Assembly (NCBI GenBank): GCA_018712805.1
Contig: DVGI01000042.1
Span: forward strand, 1-64,000
DNA: 64,000 bases
From: Candidatus Fimenecus excrementavium
GTDB taxonomy: Bacteria; Bacillota; Clostridia; Oscillospirales; Acutalibacteraceae
Direction: 5' to 3'
In this document: one piece after another, positions 1,525-50,125 of the stretch
Layout: the number at the start of each line of letters is the position of its first letter
Position numbering within the stretch: position 1 is the first letter of the stretch
Translations under genes and position numbers: made by a program
The notes under the pieces: model-generated
Seen by the model: the letters and a program-made list of their open reading frames with translations, nothing else
What the model was told of the DNA's origin: nothing
Database searches by the model: none

Positions 1525-4557
<3,033 letters not shown>

Positions 4558-4582
4558 TTTGGTCACTCCGTTTCTTTTCGGC

Positions 4583-4611
4583 ATTATAACACATGGTGTT
4601 TTTCGTTACAA
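4583..4611 (-). promoter_or_regulatory. Promoter of the GH38 gene
   Basis: Minus strand TTGTAA (4606-4611), 17-base spacer, TATAAT (4583-4588). It lies between the end of folC and the mannosidase start. Confidence 0.7.
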
Positions 4612-4618
4612 TCTTTTT

Positions 4619-5878
4619 TTAATTCTCGATTGACAATCCGAGGTCGGAAAGCAGATAAAACGACCCGCAGACAAGCACCAAGCCGTCATTCGGCGTTGTG
4701 CGTTTGGCGTTTTCAAACGCGGCGGGGACATTTGGCTCCAAGAAAATTTCGCCGGGAAAATCGCCGATTTGCGCCTTTAAATCCTCCGGCGCGGCGGCAC
4801 GGGGATTTTTTGGCTTTGTAAACCAAATGGTTTTTACATATGGCGTGACGGCTTTTAAATAGTGCGCTGTGTCTTTATCTTCCATCATGCCGATGACCGC
4901 CGTCACATTTTCGGGGGCGAAGTCGCGAAGGACTCTTGCCAGCGCGGCGCCGCATTCGGGGTTGTGCCCGCCGTCTAACAGCACGGGCGGGGGCCCCGGC
5001 AAAATTTCCATTCTGCCGTGCATGACTGTTTTGTGAATGCCGTTTACAATATTTTCTTGTGTAACGCCCGGAAGGCAGCGCGCCGCTTCAATAGCGCCGA
5101 CGGCGTTTTCCACCTGATGAAGCCCGGTAAGCGGCATTGTATATTCTCTGCCGCCATAAGAAAATACCGTTTCGCCGAGCGTTTGGCTTTGCACCTTAGC
5201 GCTGTTTACGTCGGCGACGACCAAACGGTTATGTTTTTCGGCGGCGGTGTTTTGAATCACCTGCAAAGCGTCCGGTTCTTGCCGGTTGGTGGTGACGGTG
5301 ACGCCGCCCTCTTTGATAATCCCCGCCTTTTCAAACGCGATTTTCGCAATCGTGTCGCCCAACACTTTCGTGTGGTCAAGGGAAATCGAAGTAATCACGC
5401 ACACTTCGGAACAGGGAATAATGTTGGTCGAATCAAAACGACCGCCGAGCCCCACTTCCATAACGGCGATGTCACAGCCGGCGTTTTTAAAATACAACAG
5501 CGCGGCGGCGGTAATCGCCTCAAATTCCGTGGGGACAATCCCACGCCGGTTCAAACGCTCTATCGCGTCGCGGACGATGGTGACGGTTTCGGCAAGTGCA
5601 GACTCGGAAATGTTTTGGTGATTTACCTGAATCCGCTCGCAAAACGAAAACACATAAGGTGACGTGAACAGGCCGGTTTTGTAACCCGCTTCCACCAAAA
5701 TGCGGCTGAGCATATTGGAGGTTGTCCCCTTGCCATTTGTACCGGCGACATGGACGAATTTCAAATTATTTTGCGGATTTCCGAGTTCCGCGAGTAAGGC
5801 GGAAATCCGCGACAGCCCCGGCTTCATTCCGAACACCAAAAGCGAATGGATATAAGCGACAGCTTCGCTGTAAGTCAT
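4619..5878 (-). CDS. folC: Folylpolyglutamate synthase / dihydrofolate synthase
   Basis: A 419-residue Mur-ligase-type enzyme that adds glutamate to dihydropteroate and to reduced folates with ATP. The P-loop is GTNGKGTT at 46-53, with a further Mur-ligase nucleotide signature around 310 (LLDGGHNPE). Length is normal for FolC. The start at 5878 lies 13 bases after the exonuclease III stop codon, and its ribosome binding site GAGGTG overlaps that stop, so translation is probably coupled. Whether it has both DHFS and FPGS activity cannot be read from sequence. No clear hairpin terminator is seen after it. Confidence 0.92.
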   Translation of the reverse strand: MTYSEAVAYIHSLLVFGMKPGLSRISALLAELGNPQNNLKFVHVAGTNGKGTTSNMLSRILVEAGYKTGLFTSPYVFSFCERIQVNHQNISESALAETVTIVRDAIERLNRRGIVPTEFEAITAAALLYFKNAGCDIAVMEVGLGGRFDSTNIIPCSEVCVITSISLDHTKVLGDTIAKIAFEKAGIIKEGGVTVTTNRQEPDALQVIQNTAAEKHNRLVVADVNSAKVQSQTLGETVFSYGGREYTMPLTGLHQVENAVGAIEAARCLPGVTQENIVNGIHKTVMHGRMEILPGPPPVLLDGGHNPECGAALARVLRDFAPENVTAVIGMMEDKDTAHYLKAVTPYVKTIWFTKPKNPRAAAPEDLKAQIGDFPGEIFLEPNVPAAFENAKRTTPNDGLVLVCGSFYLLSDLGLSIEN

Positions 5879-5891
5879 TTACAAAAACACC

Positions 5892-6650
5892 TCAGATATC
5901 GACAAGCAGTTCCACCGGGCAATGGTCGGAACCGTAAATTTCATTATGAATGGACGCGCCCACAAGCTTTTCGCAAAGACGCTTCGAGACGACAAAATAG
6001 TCAATGCGCCACCCCGCGTTATTGGCGCGGGCGTTGAAGCGGTAAGACCACCAGGAATACGCCCCCGTAAGGTCCGGGTAAAACCAGCGGAAGCTGTCGA
6101 CAAAGCCGCTTTCCAAAAGCGTTGTGAACTTTTCGCGTTCTTCCGGAGAAAAGCCCGGGTTTTTCACGTTGGTTTTCGGGTTTTTCAAGTCGATTTCTTG
6201 GTGCGCGACGTTTAAGTCGCCGCAATAAATAACCGGCTTCGTTTTATCGAGCGCGACAAGATAAGCGCGCAACTTATTCTCCCACGACATACGGTATTCA
6301 AGCCGCTTTAAGCCGTCCTGGGAATTGGGCGTATAGCAGTTGACCAAATAAAATTCGGGGTATTCGAGCGTAATGACGCGGCCCTCGCTGTCATAATAGG
6401 CATCGCCGAGGCCGTAGGCAACCGACAACGGTTCTTCTTTGGCGAAAATCGCCGTGCCGGAATAGCCTTTCTTTTCGGCATAATTCCAATAGGAAAAATA
6501 CCCGTCAAACGAAAGGTCTAACTGCCCTTCCTGGAGTTTGGTTTCCTGTAAGCAAAAGAAATCGGCGTTTAATTCTAAAAAGGTTTCTTCAAAGTTTTTC
6601 CCGACGCACGCGCGCAGGCCGTTCACATTCCACGAAATCAGTTTTTTCAT
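5892..6650 (-). CDS. exoA: Exodeoxyribonuclease III (AP endonuclease)
   Basis: A 252-residue Xth/ExoA-type enzyme of the endonuclease/exonuclease/phosphatase fold, which cleaves DNA at abasic sites and degrades 3' ends in base excision repair. Seen motifs: SWNVNGLRA near the N-terminus, LQETK at 34-38 with metal-binding Glu36, CGDLNVAH in the middle, and the C-terminal GSDHCPVEL with the catalytic Asp-His. The start at 6650 follows GGGGAGGCG; a longer reading from 6740 has no ribosome binding site. First gene of a pair with folC. Confidence 0.95.
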   Translation of the reverse strand: MKKLISWNVNGLRACVGKNFEETFLELNADFFCLQETKLQEGQLDLSFDGYFSYWNYAEKKGYSGTAIFAKEEPLSVAYGLGDAYYDSEGRVITLEYPEFYLVNCYTPNSQDGLKRLEYRMSWENKLRAYLVALDKTKPVIYCGDLNVAHQEIDLKNPKTNVKNPGFSPEEREKFTTLLESGFVDSFRWFYPDLTGAYSWWSYRFNARANNAGWRIDYFVVSKRLCEKLVGASIHNEIYGSDHCPVELLVDI

Positions 6651-6727
6651 TGGATTCGCCTCCCCGTTTTTTATAAAAATGACGACGATATTGTAACACT
6701 CCGCGGCGGAAAAATCCACAGTTTTCA

Positions 6728-6756
6728 TTGACTTTTTCAATTTTGTGCGGTATCAT
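6728..6756 (+). promoter_or_regulatory. Promoter of the orphan gene at 6795
   Basis: TTGACT (6728-6733), 17-base spacer, TATCAT (6751-6756), 38 bases before the start codon. Confidence 0.65.
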
Positions 6757-6794
6757 ACTTTTGTTAAATTTTTAACGCTTTTGGAGGCGTTTCC

Positions 6795-7688
6795 ATGCAA
6801 AACCCTTATACGAATCAAACCACAACCGAAAAAGGCTTTTGGCACCTCTTTTTCAGCACTTTTGAAAAAGCCGGGCTTTTGTGCCTGTTTTTCGCGCTTG
6901 TTTATTTTTCGCTGTATTTGGCATTGACGCAAGGGCGCATGCGCTTGGTCGGCAATTTTGCTTCTTCGCCGAATTCTCAAATTACAAGCGGCATACAAAA
7001 CGCGCTGCCCGCAGGTTCAGGCAATGTGTCGGGAACCACGCTGCCTTTGGAAAATGCCGTGACGGCGGACCTGACCAAAATGCCGCAGGGCAACGAAGAA
7101 ATCGCCGCTTATTTTTCGTCAGCGATCAATAAAGCGAAGGCGGAGGCCTCTTCGGTTACGCTTTTGCAGAAAAAAGGCACGAATTATAACGGCGTGGTGG
7201 ACGCAGGCAACAACTTTTTGCTTTCCTCTCTCGCAAAATCGCTGATGGGGTCGTTTTTAAAAGACGAATCTCCGAACACCGTTTACAGCACGCGCAGTGA
7301 AATTGCCGACAACTTTATCCCCCGCGGCACACAAAGCGTTTTGACGGCTAACGACATTGCCGAAGCGAACTGCACGGAAGAAAACGGCTATTATATTTTA
7401 AAGGTTAAAGTTAAGCCGGACAATAATCCGGCGGCGGGGCACGGCTCCGGCGCGGTCGGTTCGGTCATTACGACGGACGAAATCACAAGCGCGGTCAACG
7501 GGCGCATCAATTTTGATAACCTGCTTTGTCAATACGACGGTGCGTCGGCGCAAATCAAGGTGGAAAAGGCCACCGGTCATCTTACGGAAATTTCGTCGAG
7601 CCTGCCGATGTATTTACATTTGACGGCTTTGGGGCTTGAGTGCCGCATCGGTTTACAGTTTGACGAGAACTGGACCGTGGCGTGGTAA
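6795..7688 (+). CDS. Uncharacterised single-pass membrane protein
   Basis: A 297-residue protein that I do not recognise. Residues 1-18 are polar, 19-45 form one hydrophobic segment (around LLCLFFALVYFSLYLAL), and the rest is soluble, with a Ser/Gly/Thr-rich linker after the membrane segment. The topology suggests an N-terminal anchor with the bulk outside the cell. The mature part has no Cys pair and no enzyme motif that I can name. GGAGGCG lies 8 bases before the ATG. It has its own promoter and a strong terminator, so it is a single-gene unit between divergent DNA-repair genes and the HAD/RNase HI pair. Possible role at the envelope is inference only. Confidence 0.8.
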   Translation: MQNPYTNQTTTEKGFWHLFFSTFEKAGLLCLFFALVYFSLYLALTQGRMRLVGNFASSPNSQITSGIQNALPAGSGNVSGTTLPLENAVTADLTKMPQGNEEIAAYFSSAINKAKAEASSVTLLQKKGTNYNGVVDAGNNFLLSSLAKSLMGSFLKDESPNTVYSTRSEIADNFIPRGTQSVLTANDIAEANCTEENGYYILKVKVKPDNNPAAGHGSGAVGSVITTDEITSAVNGRINFDNLLCQYDGASAQIKVEKATGHLTEISSSLPMYLHLTALGLECRIGLQFDENWTVAW

Positions 7689-7703
7689 ATGATTGGATTT
7701 CTC

Positions 7704-7737
7704 GGTGCAATTCTTCGGAATTGCACCTTTTCTTTTT
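7704..7737 (+). terminator. Terminator of the orphan gene
   Basis: GGTGCAATTC (7704-7713), TTCG tetraloop, GAATTGCACC (7718-7727), then TTTTCTTTTT. Confidence 0.9.
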
Positions 7738-7804
7738 AGACGCGGTATGCTAAAATAAATAAAACTGCCGGCGGGGTCGGCATTGTGTTTTTAAGGAGAT
7801 TTGC

Positions 7805-8617
7805 ATGGCGGATTACAGTTGTTTTTCTAAAACCAAATATTTTATTATTGATATGGACGGCACCTTTTATTTGGACGGTGAACTCATTGACGGCGCGCTG
7901 GATTTTTTAAAGGAAGCAAAGACGCTGGGCAAAGATTTTTGTTTTTTCACCAACAATTCCTCAAACAACGCGGCGTTTTGCCAAGAAAAGCTTCGGAAAA
8001 TGGGCTGTTCTGTGCCGACGGAGAAAATCATTCTTTCCACCGACGTGACGACCGATTATTTAAACCGGAACTGCAAAGGCAAACGCGTTTTTCTTTTGGG
8101 CAACGAACGGCTGACCGCGGATTTTCAGAAAGCCGGCATCAAGCTTGTCGAAAAAGACCCGGATATTGTGGTTTTGGGTTTTGACACGACGCTGACCTAT
8201 CAGAAATTGTGGGACGCCTGCCGCTATATTGCGAACGGCGCCGACTATATCGCCACCCACCCCGACCGCAACTGCCCGACGGCAGACGGCTTTATGCCCG
8301 ACACGGGGTCTATGATGGCGCTTATCCACGCTTCCACCGGGCGCGACCCGCTTGTTATGGGCAAACCGAATCAATTTACCGTTGATTACTTAACCCACCG
8401 GCTAAACTGCACGCGCGACGAGCTTTGCTTTATCGGTGACCGGCTCGAGACCGATATTTTAATCGGACAAGCCGCGGGGATTTCGACCGTGCTTGTATTG
8501 ACCGGCGTAACGACGAAAGAAGATTATGAAAAAAGCGACATTCGCGCAAGCGTCGTGGAAGCGTCACTCAAAGATTTTGCAAAGCATTTGAAAGAACGGA
8601 GCGAAACATGGAACTGA
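7805..8617 (+). CDS. HAD-IIA family sugar-phosphate/nucleotide phosphatase
   Basis: A 270-residue haloacid-dehalogenase hydrolase of subfamily IIA (NagD/PGP-like). Motif I is DMDGT at 16-20 with nucleophile Asp16. Motif II is in TNNSS (about 57-61). The conserved Lys is in GKPN (about 187-190) and motif III is GDRLETDI (about 208-215). Such enzymes dephosphorylate small phosphorylated sugars or nucleotides in the cytoplasm; the substrate is open. AAGGAG precedes the ATG. Its last 10 bases overlap the rnhA start, so the two are one unit. Confidence 0.88.
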   Translation: MADYSCFSKTKYFIIDMDGTFYLDGELIDGALDFLKEAKTLGKDFCFFTNNSSNNAAFCQEKLRKMGCSVPTEKIILSTDVTTDYLNRNCKGKRVFLLGNERLTADFQKAGIKLVEKDPDIVVLGFDTTLTYQKLWDACRYIANGADYIATHPDRNCPTADGFMPDTGSMMALIHASTGRDPLVMGKPNQFTVDYLTHRLNCTRDELCFIGDRLETDILIGQAAGISTVLVLTGVTTKEDYEKSDIRASVVEASLKDFAKHLKERSETWN

Positions 8618-9060
8618 CAAAAGTGGATTTGTTTACCGACGGCGCTTGCTCCGGCAACCCCGGCGCGGGCGGCTGGGGCGCGATTTTGCGCTGTAAAGGC
8701 ACGGAAAAAGAGCTTTCCGGCGGCAGCGAAATGACGACCAACAACAAAATGGAACTGACCGCAGTCATTGAAGGGTTAAAAGCGCTCAACCGCCCCTGTC
8801 ACGTTACGCTTTACACGGACTCCAAATATGTCGCGGACGGCATTTCCAAAGGCTGGGCGGCTTCTTGGAAAGCGCGCGGCTGGCGCAAAAAAGACGGAAA
8901 ACCCGCTTTAAACCCGGAACTTTGGGACGAGCTTTTAAATCTTTGCAAACGCCACCAGTTGGAAATCATTTGGCTCAAAGGCCACGCCGGGCACCCGGAA
9001 AACGAACGCTGTGACGCAATGGCGGTGGCGCAGTCAAAAAAATATACAAAAATCAACTAA
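8608..9060 (+). CDS. rnhA: Ribonuclease HI
   Basis: A 150-residue RNase HI, which cuts the RNA strand of RNA-DNA hybrids. The four carboxylates are visible: Asp11 in FTDGACSGNPG, Glu in NKMELTAV, Asp in YTDSKYV and Asp in NERCDAMA. The His-bearing loop GHAGHPENE is also present. The length is that of E. coli RNase HI, without the N-terminal hybrid-binding domain of some firmicute enzymes. The ATG at 8608 lies inside the end of the HAD gene, and GGAG upstream falls within that gene. Confidence 0.95.
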   Translation: MELTKVDLFTDGACSGNPGAGGWGAILRCKGTEKELSGGSEMTTNNKMELTAVIEGLKALNRPCHVTLYTDSKYVADGISKGWAASWKARGWRKKDGKPALNPELWDELLNLCKRHQLEIIWLKGHAGHPENERCDAMAVAQSKKYTKIN

Positions 9061-9114
9061 ACAATTTTGTGCATTTTTTAACCTTGTTTTTTTCGTTATT
9101 TTTCGATTTTGTTA

Positions 9115-42921: not shown

Positions 42922-42950
42922 TTGACAGCCATTTTTTATAATACTATAAT
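42922..42950 (+). promoter_or_regulatory. Consensus promoter of the D-amino-acid/5-oxoproline operon
   Basis: Perfect TTGACA (42922-42927), 17-base spacer, perfect TATAAT (42945-42950). The leader before the first start codon is about 95 bases. Confidence 0.85.
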
Positions 42951-43053
42951 AGCCTGGTGAGTTAGGTTGTTTTGATTTCTGTGCAATGGCGGACAAAAAT
43001 GGAAACGGCTTAGCTTCTTTTATTTTAAAATTATATCCTTGGGGGAAAGAGCA

Positions 43054-43899
43054 ATGGAAAACATTGGTTACTACAATGGCAAAACCGATTTGATTGAAAA
43101 CATGATGATTCCGATGGGCGACCGCAGCGTCTATTTCGGCGATGGTGTCTATGACGCTACCTATTCGGTCAACCACATCATCTTTGCGTTAGAGGATCAC
43201 TTAGATCGCTTCTATAACAGCTGCCGGCTTTTGGAAATCCCCGCTCCGATGAGCCGCGAAGAACTCACCGAAGCGCTTTACAGCTGTGTGAAACAGGTCG
43301 ACGACCCCAACCAGTTCGTTTACTGGCAGTGCACCCGCGGCACCGGGATTCGCAACCACGCGTTCCCCGAGGGCAAATCCAATTTGCTGATTTACTGCCT
43401 GCCCTGCCCGATGAAAGACCTTTCGCAGAAATACAAACTGATTTCTATGGAAGACACGCGTTTCTTCCACTGCAATATTAAAACGCTGAACTTGATTCCG
43501 AGCGTTATGGCAAGCCAGCGCGCAGCGGAAAAAGGCTGTCAGGAAACGGTGTTCCACCGCGGCGATTTGGTTACGGAATGCGCGCACTCGAACGTTTCCA
43601 TTATCAAAGACGGCAAATTCATCACGCATCAGCTTGACAACCTTGTTTTGCCGGGCATCACGAGAAAGCACTTGATTCAGATTTGCAAAGAAAAAGGCAT
43701 TCCCGTCGAAGAACGCGACTACACCATGGACGAACTGCGTGCGGCGGACGAAGTGATTGTTTCCTCCTCCGGCGCGCTGTGCATGGCGGCGTGTGAATTA
43801 GACGGCAAGCCCATCGGCGGCAAGGCTCCGGAAATCATTAAGACCTTGCAGGACGCCTATCTCGAACGTCTCCACAAGGAAACCGACCCGAAGGCCTAA
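43054..43899 (+). CDS. dat: D-amino-acid aminotransferase (class IV)
   Basis: A 281-residue PLP enzyme of aminotransferase class IV. The PLP Lys is Lys143 in CNIKTLN; the C-terminal cofactor-binding block is VTECAHSNVSI. DRSVYFGDGVYDATYS at the N-terminus is typical of D-amino-acid transaminases, which exchange amino groups between D-Ala, D-Glu and 2-oxo acids. Branched-chain or 4-amino-4-deoxychorismate activity cannot be fully excluded, but the neighbours (D-glutamate cyclase-like proteins, alanine racemase) favour D-amino acids. GGGGGAAAGAGC lies before the ATG. First gene of an eight-gene unit. Confidence 0.88.
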   Translation: MENIGYYNGKTDLIENMMIPMGDRSVYFGDGVYDATYSVNHIIFALEDHLDRFYNSCRLLEIPAPMSREELTEALYSCVKQVDDPNQFVYWQCTRGTGIRNHAFPEGKSNLLIYCLPCPMKDLSQKYKLISMEDTRFFHCNIKTLNLIPSVMASQRAAEKGCQETVFHRGDLVTECAHSNVSIIKDGKFITHQLDNLVLPGITRKHLIQICKEKGIPVEERDYTMDELRAADEVIVSSSGALCMAACELDGKPIGGKAPEIIKTLQDAYLERLHKETDPKA

Positions 43900-43910
43900 A
43901 GGAGCTACAT

Positions 43911-44984
43911 ATGACACAAAAAGAACTGACGGACCTTAACATCGGTCAAAATTTGGATAATCTCGCGAACTTGGACCCGCGCGGCTACGGCGTTTGCCGG
44001 ATTTTATATAAGGCAGCGCGCGAATACACCGGCGAACCGATGACGATGCACGCGGCAAAGCTGTTGTGCGACACGCTTAAAGAAGGTGACTTGGTGTATT
44101 TGATGACAGGCTTTGTGCTCATCGACAACAAATCCGCCGAAACCGACGGCATTGTCAGCACTATGCTTTTGGCGCGCGCGCTGGTTATGGCGTTCGGCGT
44201 TAAACCCGTCATTATCTGCCAGGAAGCGAACATGGAAGCCGTAAAAAATCTCTCGCGGGTTGTCGGGCTTCACCTGTATTCTACGTTTGACGAGTTGTTC
44301 GCAAACCCCGTTTCCATAGCGGCATTTGCGTTCACCAAAGATAAGGAAAAGGCGGAAAGCCAAGCTGATGAGCTGTTGTCGCACGGCATGCCCAAAGCGC
44401 TGATTGCCAACGAATTCCCCGGCGAAAACCGCGTCGGCGAATTTCACAACGCAGTCGGCAAAAACACGACGCCGCTCGAAGCCAAAGCCGACATTTTGTT
44501 TGAAAAAATCCAGGCTGCCGGCGTTTTGAATATCGCCATCGGCGACCTCGGCAACGAAATCGGCATGGGCGCTATCGGCGCGCATTTGGACAAATATATC
44601 CCCTACGCCGCGAAAGGCGCTTGTTCGTGCGGCTGCGGCGGCGGACTTGCCACGCGCGTGGCGGCGGACAATATTATCACCGCGACGGTGTCGGACTGGG
44701 GCTGTTACGGCATGATCGCCGCGATTGCCTATCTTTTGGGCGATATGGACATTATGCACGACGCGGAATTGGAAAAAGAAGCGCTTTGCACGGCGGCGAA
44801 AAGCGGCATGGTCGACATGTACGGTTGGACGATTCCCGCCATTGACGGGTTTGATTTACAGACCAACATGGCGATTGTCACCATGATGCGCGAATGTATC
44901 CGCTATGCACCGAAACTCAAAATCAAGTGCAAAACCTGGTTCGACAAGACACTCGAGCTAAAATTCTTCGAAGAAAACAAATAA
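43911..44984 (+). CDS. DUF4392 protein, resembles C-terminal half of D-glutamate cyclase
   Basis: A 357-residue protein of the DUF4392 family (PF14336, called D-glutamate-cyclase-like C-terminal). Family blocks: LMTGFVLIDNKSAETDGIVS near 66-85, NIAIGDLGNEIGMGAIG near 205-221, and ACSCGCGGGLATRVAADNIITATVSDWG near 237-264, with a CSCGCGG cluster. In mammals the related domain forms the C-terminal half of mitochondrial D-glutamate cyclase (DGLUCY), which makes 5-oxo-D-proline. A stand-alone gene, 11 bases after dat. Function is inferred from family and neighbours. No membrane segment or signal. Confidence 0.82.
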   Translation: MTQKELTDLNIGQNLDNLANLDPRGYGVCRILYKAAREYTGEPMTMHAAKLLCDTLKEGDLVYLMTGFVLIDNKSAETDGIVSTMLLARALVMAFGVKPVIICQEANMEAVKNLSRVVGLHLYSTFDELFANPVSIAAFAFTKDKEKAESQADELLSHGMPKALIANEFPGENRVGEFHNAVGKNTTPLEAKADILFEKIQAAGVLNIAIGDLGNEIGMGAIGAHLDKYIPYAAKGACSCGCGGGLATRVAADNIITATVSDWGCYGMIAAIAYLLGDMDIMHDAELEKEALCTAAKSGMVDMYGWTIPAIDGFDLQTNMAIVTMMRECIRYAPKLKIKCKTWFDKTLELKFFEENK

Positions 44985-44990
44985 GACAGT

Positions 44991-45018
44991 GGGCGGCCAC
45001 AGCCGCCCTTTCTGCTTT
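44991..45018 (+). terminator. Internal hairpin, probable partial terminator in the operon
   Basis: GGGCGGC (44991-44997) pairs with GCCGCCC (45002-45008) around CACA, followed by TTTCTGCTTTT. It stands between DUF4392 and pxpB with only 46 bases between the genes. Confidence 0.6.
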
Positions 45019-45030
45019 TGAGGTGGTATT

Positions 45031-45759
45031 ATGCGCGAGCCTTTGATTTTATGCGGCGGCGACAGTGCGCTGGTGGTGGAATTCGGTCGGGAAATCGACG
45101 AAACTGTCAACCGGCAGGTGCACGCGTTAAACCGCGCCGTTTCAGATAAGCACATCATCGGCGTGACGGAGACCGTTCCGACGTTCCGTTCGCTGACGGT
45201 GTTTTTTGACCCGTCCGTGATTTCCGGCGAGAAACTGACCAAAAAGATTCGCAAATGCTGCCGGCATTTGACCCTCGGCGGGACGGGAGTGGAAAAGACA
45301 ACCGAAATCCCGGTGCTCTACGGCGGGAAATACGGCGAAGACCTCGAAAACGTTGCAAAACACACCGGGCTTTCGCCGGAAGAAGTGATTCGACTGCACA
45401 GTTCGGCGGATTACCGCATTTATATGCTCGGCTTTTTGCCGGGGTTTGTTTACCTAGGCGGGATGGACAAACGGCTGTTTTGCCCGCGGCTTCCCACGCC
45501 GCGCACCAAAATTCACGCCGGCGCGGTCGGCATCGGCGGCGAGCAGACCGGCATTTACCCGCTTTCCTCGCCCGGCGGCTGGCAGTTAATCGGCACAACG
45601 CCCGTGCACCCCTACGACCCGCAACGCACCCCGCCCGTTCTGTTTTCGGCAGGCGAGCACATTCGGTTCGTGCCGGTCACAGAGGACGAATATTTGGAAA
45701 TTGAAGAGCAGGTTCGCCGCGGCGAATATGTTTGTAAAACCACAGGGGGTGCAAAATGA
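45031..45759 (+). CDS. pxpB: 5-oxoprolinase subunit B (KipI-like)
   Basis: A 242-residue protein of the KipI/PxpB family (carboxyltransferase-domain, subdomain C/D). Blocks seen: GDSALVVEFG, TVPTFRSLTVFFDP, IPVLYGGKYGEDLENVA, YMLGFLPGFVYLGGMD, PRTKIHAGAVGIGGEQTGIYP and PGGWQLIGTTP. With PxpA and PxpC it forms the ATP-dependent 5-oxoprolinase that opens 5-oxoproline to glutamate. It ends in an ATGA overlap with pxpC. GAGGTGG precedes the ATG. Confidence 0.93.
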   Translation: MREPLILCGGDSALVVEFGREIDETVNRQVHALNRAVSDKHIIGVTETVPTFRSLTVFFDPSVISGEKLTKKIRKCCRHLTLGGTGVEKTTEIPVLYGGKYGEDLENVAKHTGLSPEEVIRLHSSADYRIYMLGFLPGFVYLGGMDKRLFCPRLPTPRTKIHAGAVGIGGEQTGIYPLSSPGGWQLIGTTPVHPYDPQRTPPVLFSAGEHIRFVPVTEDEYLEIEEQVRRGEYVCKTTGGAK

Positions 45760-46712
45760 GCATCCGTGTTATAAAACCGGGTTTATTAACCACGGTGCAG
45801 GACTGGGGCCGCATCGGCAGCCAGTCCATCGGCTTTAATGTTTCCGGCGTGATGGACCGCCGGTCTTATCGGCTTGCGAACTTCTTGGTCGGCAACTACA
45901 CCGACGAAGCCGTTTTGGAAATGACCGCTTTGGGCGGCAGTTTTGTCTTTTTGGAATCCAATTATATTGCCATTACCGGTGCGGACATGGGCGCAACCAT
46001 TGAGGGCGTTCCGGCGCCGATGTATCAAACGATTTTCGTGCGCGAGGGCGACACACTTTCATTTTCCGCCGCGAAAAGCGGAATGTATACGTATGTCGCG
46101 TTCGCCGGCGGGCTTGACGTGCCGCAGGTGCTCGGCAGCCGTTCGACCAATTTGAAATGCGCTGTCGGCGGCTTTGAGGGCAGGAAACTGAAAAGCGGCG
46201 ACATTTTGCCGTTTCGAAACACATTAGACCACCTGGGTGATTTACACATTCACAAGCTTACGCCCGAGGATTTCTCGCAAAGCGAAGTGACGCTTCGGGT
46301 AATCATGGGCCCGCAGGACGATTATTTCACCCATGAGGGCATTCACACCTTTTTGCACGCGCCTTACAAAGTCACGCAAAACGCCGACCGCATGGGCTAT
46401 AAGCTCGAAGGCGAGCCGATTGCTTACAAAGACAGTGTGGATATTATTTCCGACGGCATTGTGTTCGGCAGCATTCAGGTGCCCCCGGCGGGGCAGCCGA
46501 TTGTGATGCTCGCCGACCGCCAAACGACCGGCGGCTACGCTAAAATCGCGACGGTGGCAAGCGTCGATTTGCCGCTCCTTGTCCAGCGAAAGCCGGGCGA
46601 CACGGTGCGCTTTCACAAAGTCTCGGCGAAAGAGGCCGAGAAGCTTTATAAAAAAGAACAAAAGCACTTTGAAGAACTGCTTTTGCATTACGGGGAGGAC
46701 TTAATATGCTGA
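45756..46712 (+). CDS. pxpC: 5-oxoprolinase subunit C (KipA-like)
   Basis: A 318-residue biotin-dependent-carboxyltransferase-like protein of the KipA/PxpC family. Seen: [18 protein letters not shown] near the N-terminus, [29 protein letters not shown] and the C-terminal [12 protein letters not shown]. It partners PxpB. Start overlaps the pxpB stop by 4 bases; the end overlaps the DUF1445 gene by 7, so translation is coupled across all three. Confidence 0.94.
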
Positions 46713-47497
46713 ATCCTTACGAAAACGCCGCGCCGCTTGCGGTGCGTCAGAAAATACGCGCCGGGGAAATCACCGGCCAGACTTCCGGCATGTGCTTAGG
46801 CTACGCGCAGGCGAATCTTGCAGTTTTGCCGAAAGACCTGGCCTACGACTTTTTGCTGTTTACCCAGCGCAACCCGAAGCCCTGCCCGATTTTGGAGGTT
46901 TCGGACGTCGGCGACCCTTGCTTGCACAAAATTGCAAAAGACTGCAACATTGCGACAGATATTCCGAAATACCGCGTCTATGAAAAAGGCGTTATGGTCG
47001 GGGAATACACTGACGTCACAAAGTTTTGGCGCGACGATTTGGTCGCCTTTTTAATTGGCTGCTCTTTCTCGTTTGAAGCGGAACTGCTCGAATCGGGCGT
47101 TACAGTCCGCCACATTGAAGAGGGCAAAAACGTGCCGATGTATTTGACCAACATTCCCTGTGAGCCCGCCGGGGTGTTTTCCGGCAACATGGTGGTCAGC
47201 ATGCGCCCCCTGCCCAACGACCAAATCGTAAAAGCGATTAACATTACCGCATCGATGCCGCGCGTGCACGGCACGCCGGTGCATATCGGCGACCCGGAAG
47301 CGATCGGCATTCACGACCTTAGCCACCCCGACTTCGGCGAGGCGGTCACGATTCGCCCCGGCGAAACGCCCGTGTTCTGGGCTTGCGGTGTCACGCCGCA
47401 GTCTATCGTGATGAATTCCAAGCCGGATTTCTGCATCACGCACGCGCCGGGGCACATGCTCATTACCGACGTGAAAAATGCGGATTTGAAATTTTAA
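46706..47497 (+). CDS. DUF1445 protein (YcsI-like), D-glutamate cyclase family
   Basis: A 263-residue protein of the UPF0317/DUF1445 family, annotated in databases as putative hydro-lyase and grouped with D-glutamate cyclase. Blocks: [20 protein letters not shown] near 21-40, [41 protein letters not shown] and the C-terminal [10 protein letters not shown] with [14 protein letters not shown]. It matches the N-terminal half of mammalian DGLUCY, so with the DUF4392 gene the animal enzyme is present here as two separate proteins. In Bacillus ycsI also sits with the pxp genes. GGGGAGGAC lies before the ATG. Confidence 0.88.
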
Positions 47498-47510
47498 GGG
47501 AGGGTTTTTT

Positions 47511-48278
47511 ATGGCAAAGGTGGACTTAAACTGCGACATGGGCGAAAGCTTCGGCGTTTATACGCTCGGACTTGACGCACAGGTTGCCCGCTATATTTCT
47601 TCCGCCAACGTCGCCTGCGGCTTTCACGCCTCAGACCCTGTGACAATGGCGAAAACGGTTAAAATTTTAAAAGAAAACGGTGTTGCCGCCGGCGCGCACC
47701 CGGGCTTTCCCGACCTTTTGGGCTTCGGGCGGCGCAATATGAACGTAAGCCCCGCGGACGCGAAAGCCTATGTGCAATATCAAATCGGCGCCCTGCAAGC
47801 CTTTTGCATGGCAAGCGGATTAACTTTACAGCACGTCAAACCCCACGGCGCGCTTTATAATATGGCGGGCAAGGATTACGCCTTAAGCCGCGCCATTTGC
47901 GAGGGCATTGCCGAAGTGGACGACAGCCTGATTTTGTTAGGACTTTCCGGCAGTGAAATGCTGAAAGCCGCCAAAGACGTAGGGCTTCGCGCGGCAAAGG
48001 AAGTATTTGCCGACCGCGCTTATGAAGAGGACGGCTCACTGGTCGCCCGCACAAAACCGGGCGCCATGATTACCGACGAGGACGAGGCGATTGAGCGCGT
48101 CATCGGCATGGTGAAATATGGCAAGGTGAAAGCCTTGACAGGCAAAGAAATCGAAATAGAAGCAAATTCCGTCTGCGTGCACGGTGACGGCGAAAAAGCG
48201 CTTGCATTCGTCGAGAAAATCCGCGCCGCGCTGGAACGGGAAAACATTACCATTGCACCGCTTCACGAAATCGTATAA
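47511..48278 (+). CDS. pxpA: 5-oxoprolinase subunit A (LamB/YcsF family)
   Basis: A 255-residue LamB/YcsF-type protein, opening with VDLNCDMGESFGVY and continuing with SANVACGFHASDP, GAHPGFPDLLGFGRR and HVKPHGALYN, all family signatures. It completes the PxpABC set. GGGAGGG precedes the ATG, 13 bases after the DUF1445 stop. Confidence 0.95.
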   Translation: MAKVDLNCDMGESFGVYTLGLDAQVARYISSANVACGFHASDPVTMAKTVKILKENGVAAGAHPGFPDLLGFGRRNMNVSPADAKAYVQYQIGALQAFCMASGLTLQHVKPHGALYNMAGKDYALSRAICEGIAEVDDSLILLGLSGSEMLKAAKDVGLRAAKEVFADRAYEEDGSLVARTKPGAMITDEDEAIERVIGMVKYGKVKALTGKEIEIEANSVCVHGDGEKALAFVEKIRAALERENITIAPLHEIV

Positions 48279-48294
48279 AGGGGACGAACAAAAA

Positions 48295-49455
48295 ATGCTG
48301 CCGCAAAGGGTATATGCCGAGGTCAACCTCGACGCAATTTGTCAGAACATTCAAAACGCTATGAAAAAAGTCGGTCCAGACACCAAAATCATGGCGATTA
48401 TCAAAACCGACGCCTACGGACACGGCGCCGTGCCGATTGCGCGCGCGCTTTCGGAAATCGGCTGTTATGCGTTCGGCGTGGCGACTATTCCTGAAGCCGT
48501 TCAGCTTCGGAAAGCGGGCATCGAAAACCCGATTTTGATTTTGGGCTATGTTTTTCCGGCGGATTACGACGCGCTGATTGAAAACAACATTATGCACGCG
48601 GTTTTCCAATATGAGACCGCGAAAGCGCTTTCCGACAAAGCGGTTTCTCTCGGGAAAACAGTAACGATTCACATTAAACTCGACACCGGCATGGGCCGCA
48701 TCGGCATGCAGCCGACCGAAGAAAGCGTTCAGGAAATCCAGCGCATCGCGGCGCTGCCGAATCTTGAAATCAACGGGATTTTCACGCACTTTGCCTGTGC
48801 GGACGAGAAAGACAAGACTTCCTGCAACCTGCAAAAGAAGAAATATTTGGACTTCATCCGTCGGCTGGACGAAGTCGGTGTGAAAATTCCGATTAAGCAC
48901 ATGTGCAACAGCGCCGGCATTATTGAATTTGACGACAACTTTTTAAATATGGCACGCAGCGGCATTATGACCTACGGGCTGTATCCGTCAAACGAAGTGG
49001 ATAAATCGAAATTGGAACTCCGCCCTGCTTTGCAGTTAAAAAGCCATGTCGCGTTCGTCAAGACCGTTGACGCGGGCTTTACGGTAAGCTATGGTTCCAC
49101 CTACACAACCACCGGAAAGACCGTGATTGCGACCATACCCGTAGGCTACGGTGACGGCTATCCGCGGGCGCTTTCGAACAAAGGCAAAGTGCTCATTCAC
49201 GGGCAGTTTGCGCCGATTATCGGGCGCGTTTGCATGGACCAATTTATGGTGGACGTCACGAATATTCCGAACGTTAACCAAGGCGACGAGGTCACGATTA
49301 TCGGGCACGACGGCGACAACTGCATCACCGTCGAAGACGTTGCCGACAACGCTTACAGCTTCAATTATGAGTTCTGCTGCGGCATTAACAAGCGCGTACC
49401 GCGGGTTTATATCCGTAACGGTGAAGTGTCCGAAATTGTGGACATGTTGGATTGA
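48295..49455 (+). CDS. alr: Alanine racemase
   Basis: A 386-residue PLP-dependent alanine racemase. The PLP Lys is in MAIIKTDAYGHGA near residue 40; the catalytic Tyr is in VSYGSTYTT near 266; the C-terminal DQFMVDVT and GDEVTIIG are typical. It interconverts L- and D-alanine, feeding cell-wall synthesis, and here also could deliver D-Ala to the transaminase of the same unit. The ATG at 48295 follows AAAGGGGACG and stands 16 bases after pxpA; longer readings overlap pxpA by over 90 bases. Confidence 0.95.
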   Translation: MLPQRVYAEVNLDAICQNIQNAMKKVGPDTKIMAIIKTDAYGHGAVPIARALSEIGCYAFGVATIPEAVQLRKAGIENPILILGYVFPADYDALIENNIMHAVFQYETAKALSDKAVSLGKTVTIHIKLDTGMGRIGMQPTEESVQEIQRIAALPNLEINGIFTHFACADEKDKTSCNLQKKKYLDFIRRLDEVGVKIPIKHMCNSAGIIEFDDNFLNMARSGIMTYGLYPSNEVDKSKLELRPALQLKSHVAFVKTVDAGFTVSYGSTYTTTGKTVIATIPVGYGDGYPRALSNKGKVLIHGQFAPIIGRVCMDQFMVDVTNIPNVNQGDEVTIIGHDGDNCITVEDVADNAYSFNYEFCCGINKRVPRVYIRNGEVSEIVDMLD

Positions 49456-49515
49456 CAAAGCCGGGATTTTCCTCTAAAATGGATTTTAGAATCCAAGCAA
49501 TACGGAGCGAAATTT

Positions 49516-50079
49516 ATGGAATTTGATACTTTTGACGCCTTTGACGCCGGCATTGAAATGGGCGGGCTTCGCAACCGCAACGAAATTCGGCTTTTGGTGT
49601 GTTATTTACTCAAAGCGATTGACAAACCTGTGCCGAAATCCCTGCTTTTAGACGCGCTCGTCGGCGAAGGGCTTGCGAATTATTTTGAACTCAACGAAGC
49701 GGTTGCCGAGCTTTTGAAAAACGGCAACATTGACCGGGATATTTTAGATGACGAAGAAGTTTTGACCGTTACTCCGCGCGGGAAAGAGTCGGCGGAGCTT
49801 TTGGAAACTACGCTTCCGAAAACCGTGCGCGAAAAGGCAGTCAACTCCGGCATTAAGCTGATGACGCTCGCCAAGAACAAGCGTGAAAACAAGATTTTGA
49901 CCGAGAAGTTAGAAAACGGCGGCTATAACGTCACCTTTATTCTCGGCGACGAGGGCAACGAACTGATGCGCCTGACGGTGTTTGTCGCCGACAGCATGCA
50001 ATTAGAAGCGGTCAAAAACAACTTCCTTGCGGACCCCGTGAAGCTTTATTCGAGCATCATTACCGCGCTGACAATTTGA
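49516..50079 (+). CDS. DUF4364 family protein, probable winged-helix regulator
   Basis: A 187-residue protein of the DUF4364 family, common in Clostridia and thought to be a winged-helix DNA-binding protein. Residues about 22-90 show a helix-rich region with the wing-like VLTVTPRGKESAELL; the C-terminal half is beta-rich. No biochemical role is established. CGGAG precedes the ATG. It may be the last gene of the alr operon, 60 bases downstream, and could regulate it. A terminator follows. Confidence 0.85.
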   Translation: MEFDTFDAFDAGIEMGGLRNRNEIRLLVCYLLKAIDKPVPKSLLLDALVGEGLANYFELNEAVAELLKNGNIDRDILDDEEVLTVTPRGKESAELLETTLPKTVREKAVNSGIKLMTLAKNKRENKILTEKLENGGYNVTFILGDEGNELMRLTVFVADSMQLEAVKNNFLADPVKLYSSIITALTI

Positions 50080-50090
50080 CAAAAAAATAA

Positions 50091-50125
50091 AAACAGCCGT
50101 TTGAGAAAATCAAACGGCTGTTTTT
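50091..50125 (+). terminator. Terminator of the D-amino-acid operon
   Basis: AAACAGCCGTTTGA (50091-50104), GAAAA loop, TCAAACGGCTGTTT (50110-50123), with the T run TTTTT. Confidence 0.9.

Follow-up and report, generated by a model that had tools for sequence, protein, structure and literature searches.

A conserved clostridial operon with D-glutamate cyclase-like, 5-oxoprolinase-like, D-amino-acid transaminase and alanine racemase genes, and its possible link to cell-wall D-glutamate

Animals convert D-glutamate (D-Glu) to 5-oxo-D-proline with a protein in which two domains are fused (PMC5339696). The window analyzed here, a 64,000-nt stretch of Candidatus Fimenecus excrementavium (contig DVGI01000042.1), encodes these two domains as separate proteins, DUF1445 and DUF4392, in one operon with dat, pxpB, pxpC, pxpA and alr. 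What does this operon do, and which form of 5-oxoproline passes through it? A sequence-only reading of the window had proposed a salvage or catabolic route for D-amino acids. We see about an even chance that the operon is a module joining the cell-wall pool of D-alanine (D-Ala) and D-Glu to 5-oxoproline.

The gene list and coordinates of that reading, from dat to alr, were confirmed. All seven genes lie on the plus strand, no gap exceeds 46 bases (range -7 to 46), and the seven Pfam identities are all far above gathering scores. The first gene, dat, encodes a D-amino-acid transaminase-like protein of fold type IV (43054..43899; PF01063, E 1e-47). It is followed by DUF4392 (43911..44984; PF14336, E 1.5e-89), whose 357-residue product resembles the C-terminal domain of D-glutamate cyclase and belongs to a long clade with a C-x-C-x-C insert. 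The next two genes are pxpB (CT_C_D, KipI-like; 45031..45759; PF02682), which passes the equivalog TIGR00370 (224.5 bits, cut-off 145.55), and pxpC (CT_A_B, KipA-like; 45756..46712; PF02626; TIGR00724 above cut-off). DUF1445, similar to the N-terminal domain of D-glutamate cyclase and to YcsI (46706..47497; PF07286; NF003969, 428 bits against 324), precedes pxpA (LamB/YcsF; 47511..48278; PF03746; NF003814, 375.5 bits, cut-off 226). The last gene, alr, has its ATG at 48295 (48295..49455) and was identified as alanine racemase by TIGR00492 (399.6 bits, cut-off 168), with a query at 48289-49452 that started two codons earlier. A sigma-70-type promoter, TTGACA-17-TATAAT, lies on the plus strand about 100 bases 5' of dat (42922..42950). 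It has 12/12 consensus bases and a 17-base spacer, and sites of 12/12 were also found 5' of dat in seven relatives (L028, L029, L030, L031, L033, L034 and L041).

To follow this gene set in other bacteria, GTDB species genomes were scanned with a DUF4392 alignment, and the best 80 of at least 481 stretches encoding a relative were kept (loci L028-L107). Since these are the closest relatives, the window's own clade is over-represented and the counts describe one clade. Most of the loci come from Clostridia, including the cultured species Clostridium tyrobutyricum, Lacrimispora algidixylanolytica and Caproicibacter fermentans, of which none is a known pathogen, and a few from metagenome-assembled genomes (MAGs) named Spirochaetales, Paenibacillaceae or Schwartzia. 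Genes were counted in the 54 loci whose flanks reached 1.2 kb or more upstream and 5.5 kb or more downstream, loci near contig ends being excluded. We found dat in 48, pxpB in 50, pxpC in 50, DUF1445 in 48, pxpA in 47 and alr in 28 of them. All six core genes were present in 43/54 loci, and all seven, alr included, in 22/54. The alternative order dat-DUF4392-DUF1445-pxpA(-alr)-pxpB-pxpC is found in seven of the 54 loci, most of which carry the name Clostridium. Because the same gene set occurs in 43 of 54 loci and in two gene orders, linkage by chance is excluded. The lack of conserved linkage in related genomes had been named beforehand as a refutation of the proposal; conserved linkage is what was found. 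Smaller sets also occur. DUF1445 and pxpA are absent at L051, L059 and L084, only DUF4392-alr remains at L091 and L093, only dat-DUF4392 at L048, and L043, L046, L062 and L102 have no dat upstream.

When pairwise distances are compared, those of dat, DUF4392, DUF1445, pxpA and alr correlate with one another (Spearman 0.29-0.63), and those of pxpB correlate with those of pxpC (0.66). Between the pxpB/pxpC set and the other five genes the correlation is weaker on the whole (0.06-0.35). Partial or stop-containing sequences were excluded from the distance and motif alignments, which left 64 sequences for dat, 79 for DUF4392, 71 for pxpB, 69 for pxpC, 64 for DUF1445, 56 for pxpA and 31 for alr, the window included.

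In an unselected sample of 245 genomes (G numbers) from the window's order, PF14336 was found in 10, which belong to ten different genera. Seven of the ten carry the long clade. All seven operon genes are present in the window, G009 and G188, six in G140 and five in G153, and the contigs of G033 and G123 end after dat-DUF4392. Among the three other carriers, the short DUF4392 of G097 adjoins DUF1445, and the stretches fetched around DUF4392 in G150 and G058 hold none of the other operon genes. G058, a genome with MurI, has three tandem DUF4392-like stretches on a short contig (L023:173-3071).

Peptidoglycan requires D-Glu, which normally comes from the glutamate racemase MurI. No glutamate racemase over the MurI cut-off was found in the window's genome, which is 97% complete. 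The operon alr is the single alanine racemase match (PF00842) of this genome. Of its two aminotransferase class IV matches, only that of the operon is a Dat ortholog; the second matches Dat over 62 residues with 24 bits and reads like a branched-chain enzyme. Because the operon holds the sole alr and the sole dat ortholog found, and no MurI passes the cut-off, Dat and Alr, at least, would appear to supply the cell wall in this genome. A purely catabolic role is not supported by this. A weak MurI match on contig C18 was rejected as a glutamate racemase, being a TIGR00035 amino-acid racemase over the CuyB cut-off and far below that of MurI. This aspartate/cysteate (CuyB)-type racemase lies directly 3' of a same-strand open reading frame with a weak ATP-grasp-type match (L002:1504-3464), which raises the possibility of a ligase pair for D-aspartate or a related compound.

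We compared the presence of MurI over the 245 genomes of the order. MurI was over the cut-off in 193 and seemingly missing in about a fifth, and 158 of the 185 most complete genomes gave at least a weak match; as a control, the model passes in 8/14 well-known genomes. Only 2/10 DUF4392 carriers have MurI over the cut-off, compared to 191/235 non-carriers (absent in 8/10 vs 44/235; Fisher p 8e-5). In the window's order the operon sits preferentially in genomes that seem to lack MurI. In the wider collection, MurI was searched in the genomes of 50 of the 80 loci. Dat orthologs were found in 47/50, and three genomes (G308, G341 and G342) had neither MurI over the cut-off nor a Dat ortholog. MurI was missing at 19/26 loci with alr and at 6/24 loci without it (p 0.0016, not corrected for kinship; this table includes L048 and also L054, which runs to a contig end). 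The match to the promoter consensus upstream of dat averaged 10.4 in 21 MurI-less loci and 8.7 in 23 others (p 3e-5, again not corrected for kinship).

Two simpler relations were tried and rejected. That alr joins the operon upon loss of MurI was examined on the DUF4392 tree, where about 2 of 6 independent pairs agreed and 0.1 disagreed; this is not significant with kinship taken into account (the rows contained no L082, and the alr trait was scored without L054). That MurI and Dat are simple alternatives gets no support from a sample of the window's family, in which MurI is over its cut-off in 40 of 60 genomes and a Dat ortholog was found in 7. Among the 20 without MurI, two have a fragmented MurI (G275 and G281, set aside); in four a Dat ortholog is present, and 14 seem to lack both.

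DUF4392 has the PDB relatives 4fc5, 5gkx and 4dwz (TON_0340), and DUF1445 has 3db9 and 2pif. The metal ligands of TON_0340 are Glu59, Asp61, Glu115, Asp157, Glu161 and Asp246 (PMC5132392), and the equivalents in the window are E77, D79, E168, D212, E216 and D312. All six are invariant in 79 long-clade sequences, except D312, which is present in 78/79 with one gap. TON_0340, an archaeal stand-alone protein, is of the same Pfam family and has all six metal acids, but its chain is shorter, with 269 residues. In the same alignment of 79, the C-x-C-x-C insert (44619-44642, plus strand; codons 237-244 of DUF4392) keeps Cys238 in 79/79 and Cys240 and Cys242 in 75/79 sequences. It is possible that the insert forms an extra metal site or a lid.

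The best solved relative of Dat is the D-amino acid aminotransferase 1daa. The Bacillus enzyme has an alpha-carboxylate trap of Y31, R98 and H100, and a lysine, K35, is proposed to hold the gamma-carboxylate (PMC10003956). The trap (Y33, R100 and H102) and K143 occur in 63-64 of 64 aligned Dat sequences, the sole exception being a gap, so the D-selective motifs are kept, in agreement with the proposed identity. K143 is presumably the pyridoxal phosphate lysine. In Alr, K39 and Y268 (numbering of the searched protein), which we take to be the catalytic Lys and Tyr, are present in 31/31 sequences. A PxpABC-like set, as had been proposed, is also there. PxpA, whose PDB relatives are 1v6t and E. 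coli YbgL 1xw8, passes the subfamily NF003816 as well (274.3 bits, cut-off 213), and the equivalogs NF003813, NF003815 and NF003812 were not reached. For PxpC, the cut-off of the broad domain model alone is reached. In the Clostridium loci L044 (15544-17333) and L042, genes for a biotin carrier protein and a biotin carboxylase lie directly 3' of pxpBC, which suggests a biotin-dependent Pxp variant.

What the analysis establishes is gene content, conservation, motifs and genome context; each reaction of the module, the way material flows through it and the form of 5-oxoproline taken by PxpABC are inferred. Alr would interconvert L-Ala and D-Ala. Dat would exchange amino groups between D-Ala/pyruvate and D-Glu/2-oxoglutarate, and could thereby feed or drain D-Glu. 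DUF4392, as a metal-dependent protein, and DUF1445 would interconvert D-Glu and 5-oxo-D-proline, surplus or recycled D-Glu probably flowing to the ring form. PxpABC would use ATP to open 5-oxoproline and yield glutamate. Hosts that lack MurI, including that of the window, would probably obtain wall D-Glu through Alr and Dat, a reading that fits the better dat promoter matches there, and the 5-oxoproline branch would lead back to glutamate.

The sequence-only reading had posed a dilemma of stereochemistry, with a cyclase that gives the D form and a PxpABC known for the L form. The dilemma is real. It is not forced, because D- and L-5-oxoproline could go through two parallel branches. We see three exits: PxpABC may take the D form, one protein may invert the ring, or D and L rings may be handled in parallel. 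In the parallel case the D ring would be opened by the cyclase in reverse and drained by Dat. Mouse D-glutamate cyclase is said to be reversible and stimulated by Mn.

Several points weigh against a D-Glu module of this kind. Where the Bacillus enzyme has K35, the 63 Dat sequences with a residue at that position show Y, V, C, S or A and never K, and the window's Dat (225 bits) falls below the TIGR01121 equivalog cut-off of 277.45, so D-Glu is not assured as a substrate of Dat. PxpC reaches 250.9 bits, below the PxpC equivalog cut-off of 500 (NF045499), and the PxpC proteins of L044, L082 and L019 also stay below this cut-off. Identity between the long DUF4392 clade and the three other aligned forms is just 27-31%, and we know of no measured activity for any bacterial long-clade DUF4392 protein. 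TON_0340 is reported as a weak Mn2+-dependent phosphatase whose physiological substrate is unassigned (PMC5132392). The genome context also has counterexamples. Neither MurI nor DUF4392 was matched in the congener G237, so the loss of MurI may characterize the lineage and have come first, and MurI is present in 25 of the 50 carriers from the wider collection. In 14 of the 60 family genomes, several of them 97-99% complete, a Dat ortholog and a MurI over the cut-off both seem absent, so the window's family probably has a further source of D-Glu.

Are DUF1445 and DUF4392 two halves of one animal-type cyclase, as had been proposed? Both domains are indeed present as separate proteins. The B. subtilis control genome gave a PF07286 match and no PF14336 match. 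PF07286 was also searched in 12 genomes that carry DUF4392, nine of them picked for a locus without DUF1445 or running out and three others. It was matched in 8/12 and not matched in four (G315, G341, G342 and G350). As all four are MAGs, absence over the whole genome is not proven, and this half of the evidence is weaker than the B. subtilis half. An obligate two-protein enzyme was rejected as a strict claim, each domain occurring without the other. For the same reason, separate steps of one pathway would fit the two proteins better than halves of one active site. Neither of the two, the only proteins tested for this, matched an anti-phage defence model.

A table in PMC11580864 already counts homologs in gut bacteria, 0 full and 6 split. 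Mammalian DGLUCY (C14orf159 / 9030617O03Rik) shares PF07286, PF14336 and the metal-site acids with the operon. However, DGLUCY is one protein, whereas in the operon each domain has its own gene and pxpB and pxpC stand between the two; in Clostridium proper and in L052 the two domain genes are adjacent. The operon DUF4392 also differs in its longer clade and C-x-C-x-C insert, the two domains occur apart as well, and Pxp, Dat and Alr are associated with them. In a DGLUCY-type enzyme the two domains would share a chain or at least always accompany each other, and the operon proteins do neither.

The B. subtilis pxp operon likewise brings PxpABC together with a DUF1445 gene, which we take to be that of YcsI, and presumably has neither dat nor alr. 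PMC10448178 gives its genes as ycsF, ycsG, ycsI, kipI, kipA and kipR, and YcsG as a reported Mn2+ importer. Both this importer and the missing PF14336 set B. subtilis apart from the window. The Mn2+ importer in an operon with PxpABC and YcsI, the Mn-binding DUF4392 family and an animal cyclase reportedly stimulated by Mn have a possible common thread. In Corynebacterium glutamicum, pxpTABC likewise serves PxpABC-based use of 5-oxoproline, there described for the L form (PMC13274462). DgcN-dependent D-glutamate catabolism is a dedicated, irreversible D to L route with different enzymes (PMC12363236). Every family of the operon is already known. For their combination, its conservation and its tie to missing MurI, no description was found among the papers listed in a literature survey, judged by title and start of abstract.

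Genes next to the operon were analyzed with one scanned representative for each neighbor family. An ATP-binding cassette importer of the Liv type lies beside the operon in 17 of the 80 loci, and at an eighteenth locus, L062, the Liv-type binding protein is encoded on the opposite strand. The importer-adjacent hosts are, by name, mostly Lachnospiraceae, and 14 of the 15 tested have MurI. In such hosts, where MurI is usually present, the same core would probably salvage imported material. A Cytidylate_kin2 gene (PF13189) is found in 16 of the 17 importer loci. At L035 and L050 these genes are divergent, beside the alternative gene order. In L082 it lies between the Liv-type importer and dat (3736-9108), with equivalents in L056, L061, L066, L074, L078, L081, L086, L087, L088, L096, L097, L098 and L103. 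An AsnC/Lrp-like regulator is encoded upstream of dat in 7/80 loci.

The best placed alternative to the module is a linear catabolic route, in which the DUF1445/DUF4392 pair turns D-Glu into 5-oxo-D-proline and a D-accepting PxpABC makes glutamate from it. We consider it unlikely, although the joining of the six core genes in 43/54 loci and the importer beside 17/80 would both suit such a route. As PxpC lies outside the curated PxpC equivalog, a different Pxp substrate is possible as well. However, the PxpABC work in PMC13274462 concerns 5-oxo-L-proline, and the evolution of pxpB and pxpC is separate from that of the other operon genes. In addition, Clostridium guangxiense (L052) keeps dat-DUF4392-DUF1445-alr with no pxp gene at the locus, to which the search was limited.

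We give a smaller chance to a one-way inversion of glutamate. One protein would cyclize D-Glu, the other would epimerize 5-oxoproline from D to L, and PxpABC would yield L-Glu, its ATP-driven step making the whole route run from D to L. This would settle the stereochemistry, and the occurrence of DUF1445 and DUF4392 apart is expected of separate steps. Sequentially linked functions have been suggested for the fused animal domains (PMC5132392), and a route that racemizes acidic D-amino acids irreversibly by way of another gene, dgcN, has been published (PMC12363236). Against it, the animal enzyme with both domains is reported to yield 5-oxo-D-proline (PMC5339696). If glutamate were inverted in this way, the racemase of Clostridia that have lost MurI would be replaced from D to L by the ring route and from L to D by Alr and Dat. 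The carriers L043, L091 and L093, in which neither MurI nor a Dat ortholog was found, would then be the place to seek a further D-Glu-related activity of the long DUF4392 clade.

It is doubtful that peptidoglycan turnover supplies the pair with its main substrates, gamma-D-glutamyl peptides, from which it would release the adjacent amino acid and 5-oxo-D-proline, free D-Glu being a side substrate. The chemistry has a parallel in the established gamma-glutamyl cyclotransferases, and the adjoining Liv-type importer and the cell-wall genes dat and alr would fit. However, none of the 10 neighbor clusters present in at least 4/80 loci read as a peptidoglycan hydrolase or peptidase (some representatives were scanned), and the animal enzyme takes free D-Glu. 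Neutral or chance clustering without a shared pathway is very improbable: the operon is sporadic in its order (10/245) and its importers or regulators vary between lineages, but the same set in two gene orders and the correlated distances of five of its genes both speak against it.

A module that joins the cell-wall D-Ala/D-Glu pool to 5-oxoproline thus remains our preferred reading. The operon offers a concrete system for learning the roles of bacterial relatives of the animal D-glutamate cyclase, and since named cultured species carry it, the stereochemistry can be settled with purified proteins. It is also plausible that gut Clostridia are a source or sink of mammalian D-Glu and 5-oxo-D-proline.

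Other features lie within and behind the operon. A G+C-rich hairpin with a short T-rich tail is found between DUF4392 and pxpB (44991..45008, plus strand). This strong hairpin is retained in the nearest relative, L028, and not in L029 or L030, and partial attenuation at this site is therefore possible. The sequence-only reading had also counted DUF4364 as a possible member of the operon. This was rejected as likely: the gene has its own promoter-like site (49452..49480, plus strand; 11/12), which overlaps the end of alr, and it follows alr directly in only 3/54 related loci, so it probably lies outside the unit. Further downstream, an inverted repeat at 50089-50125 received a terminator call for the minus strand alone; it could stop plus-strand transcripts too.

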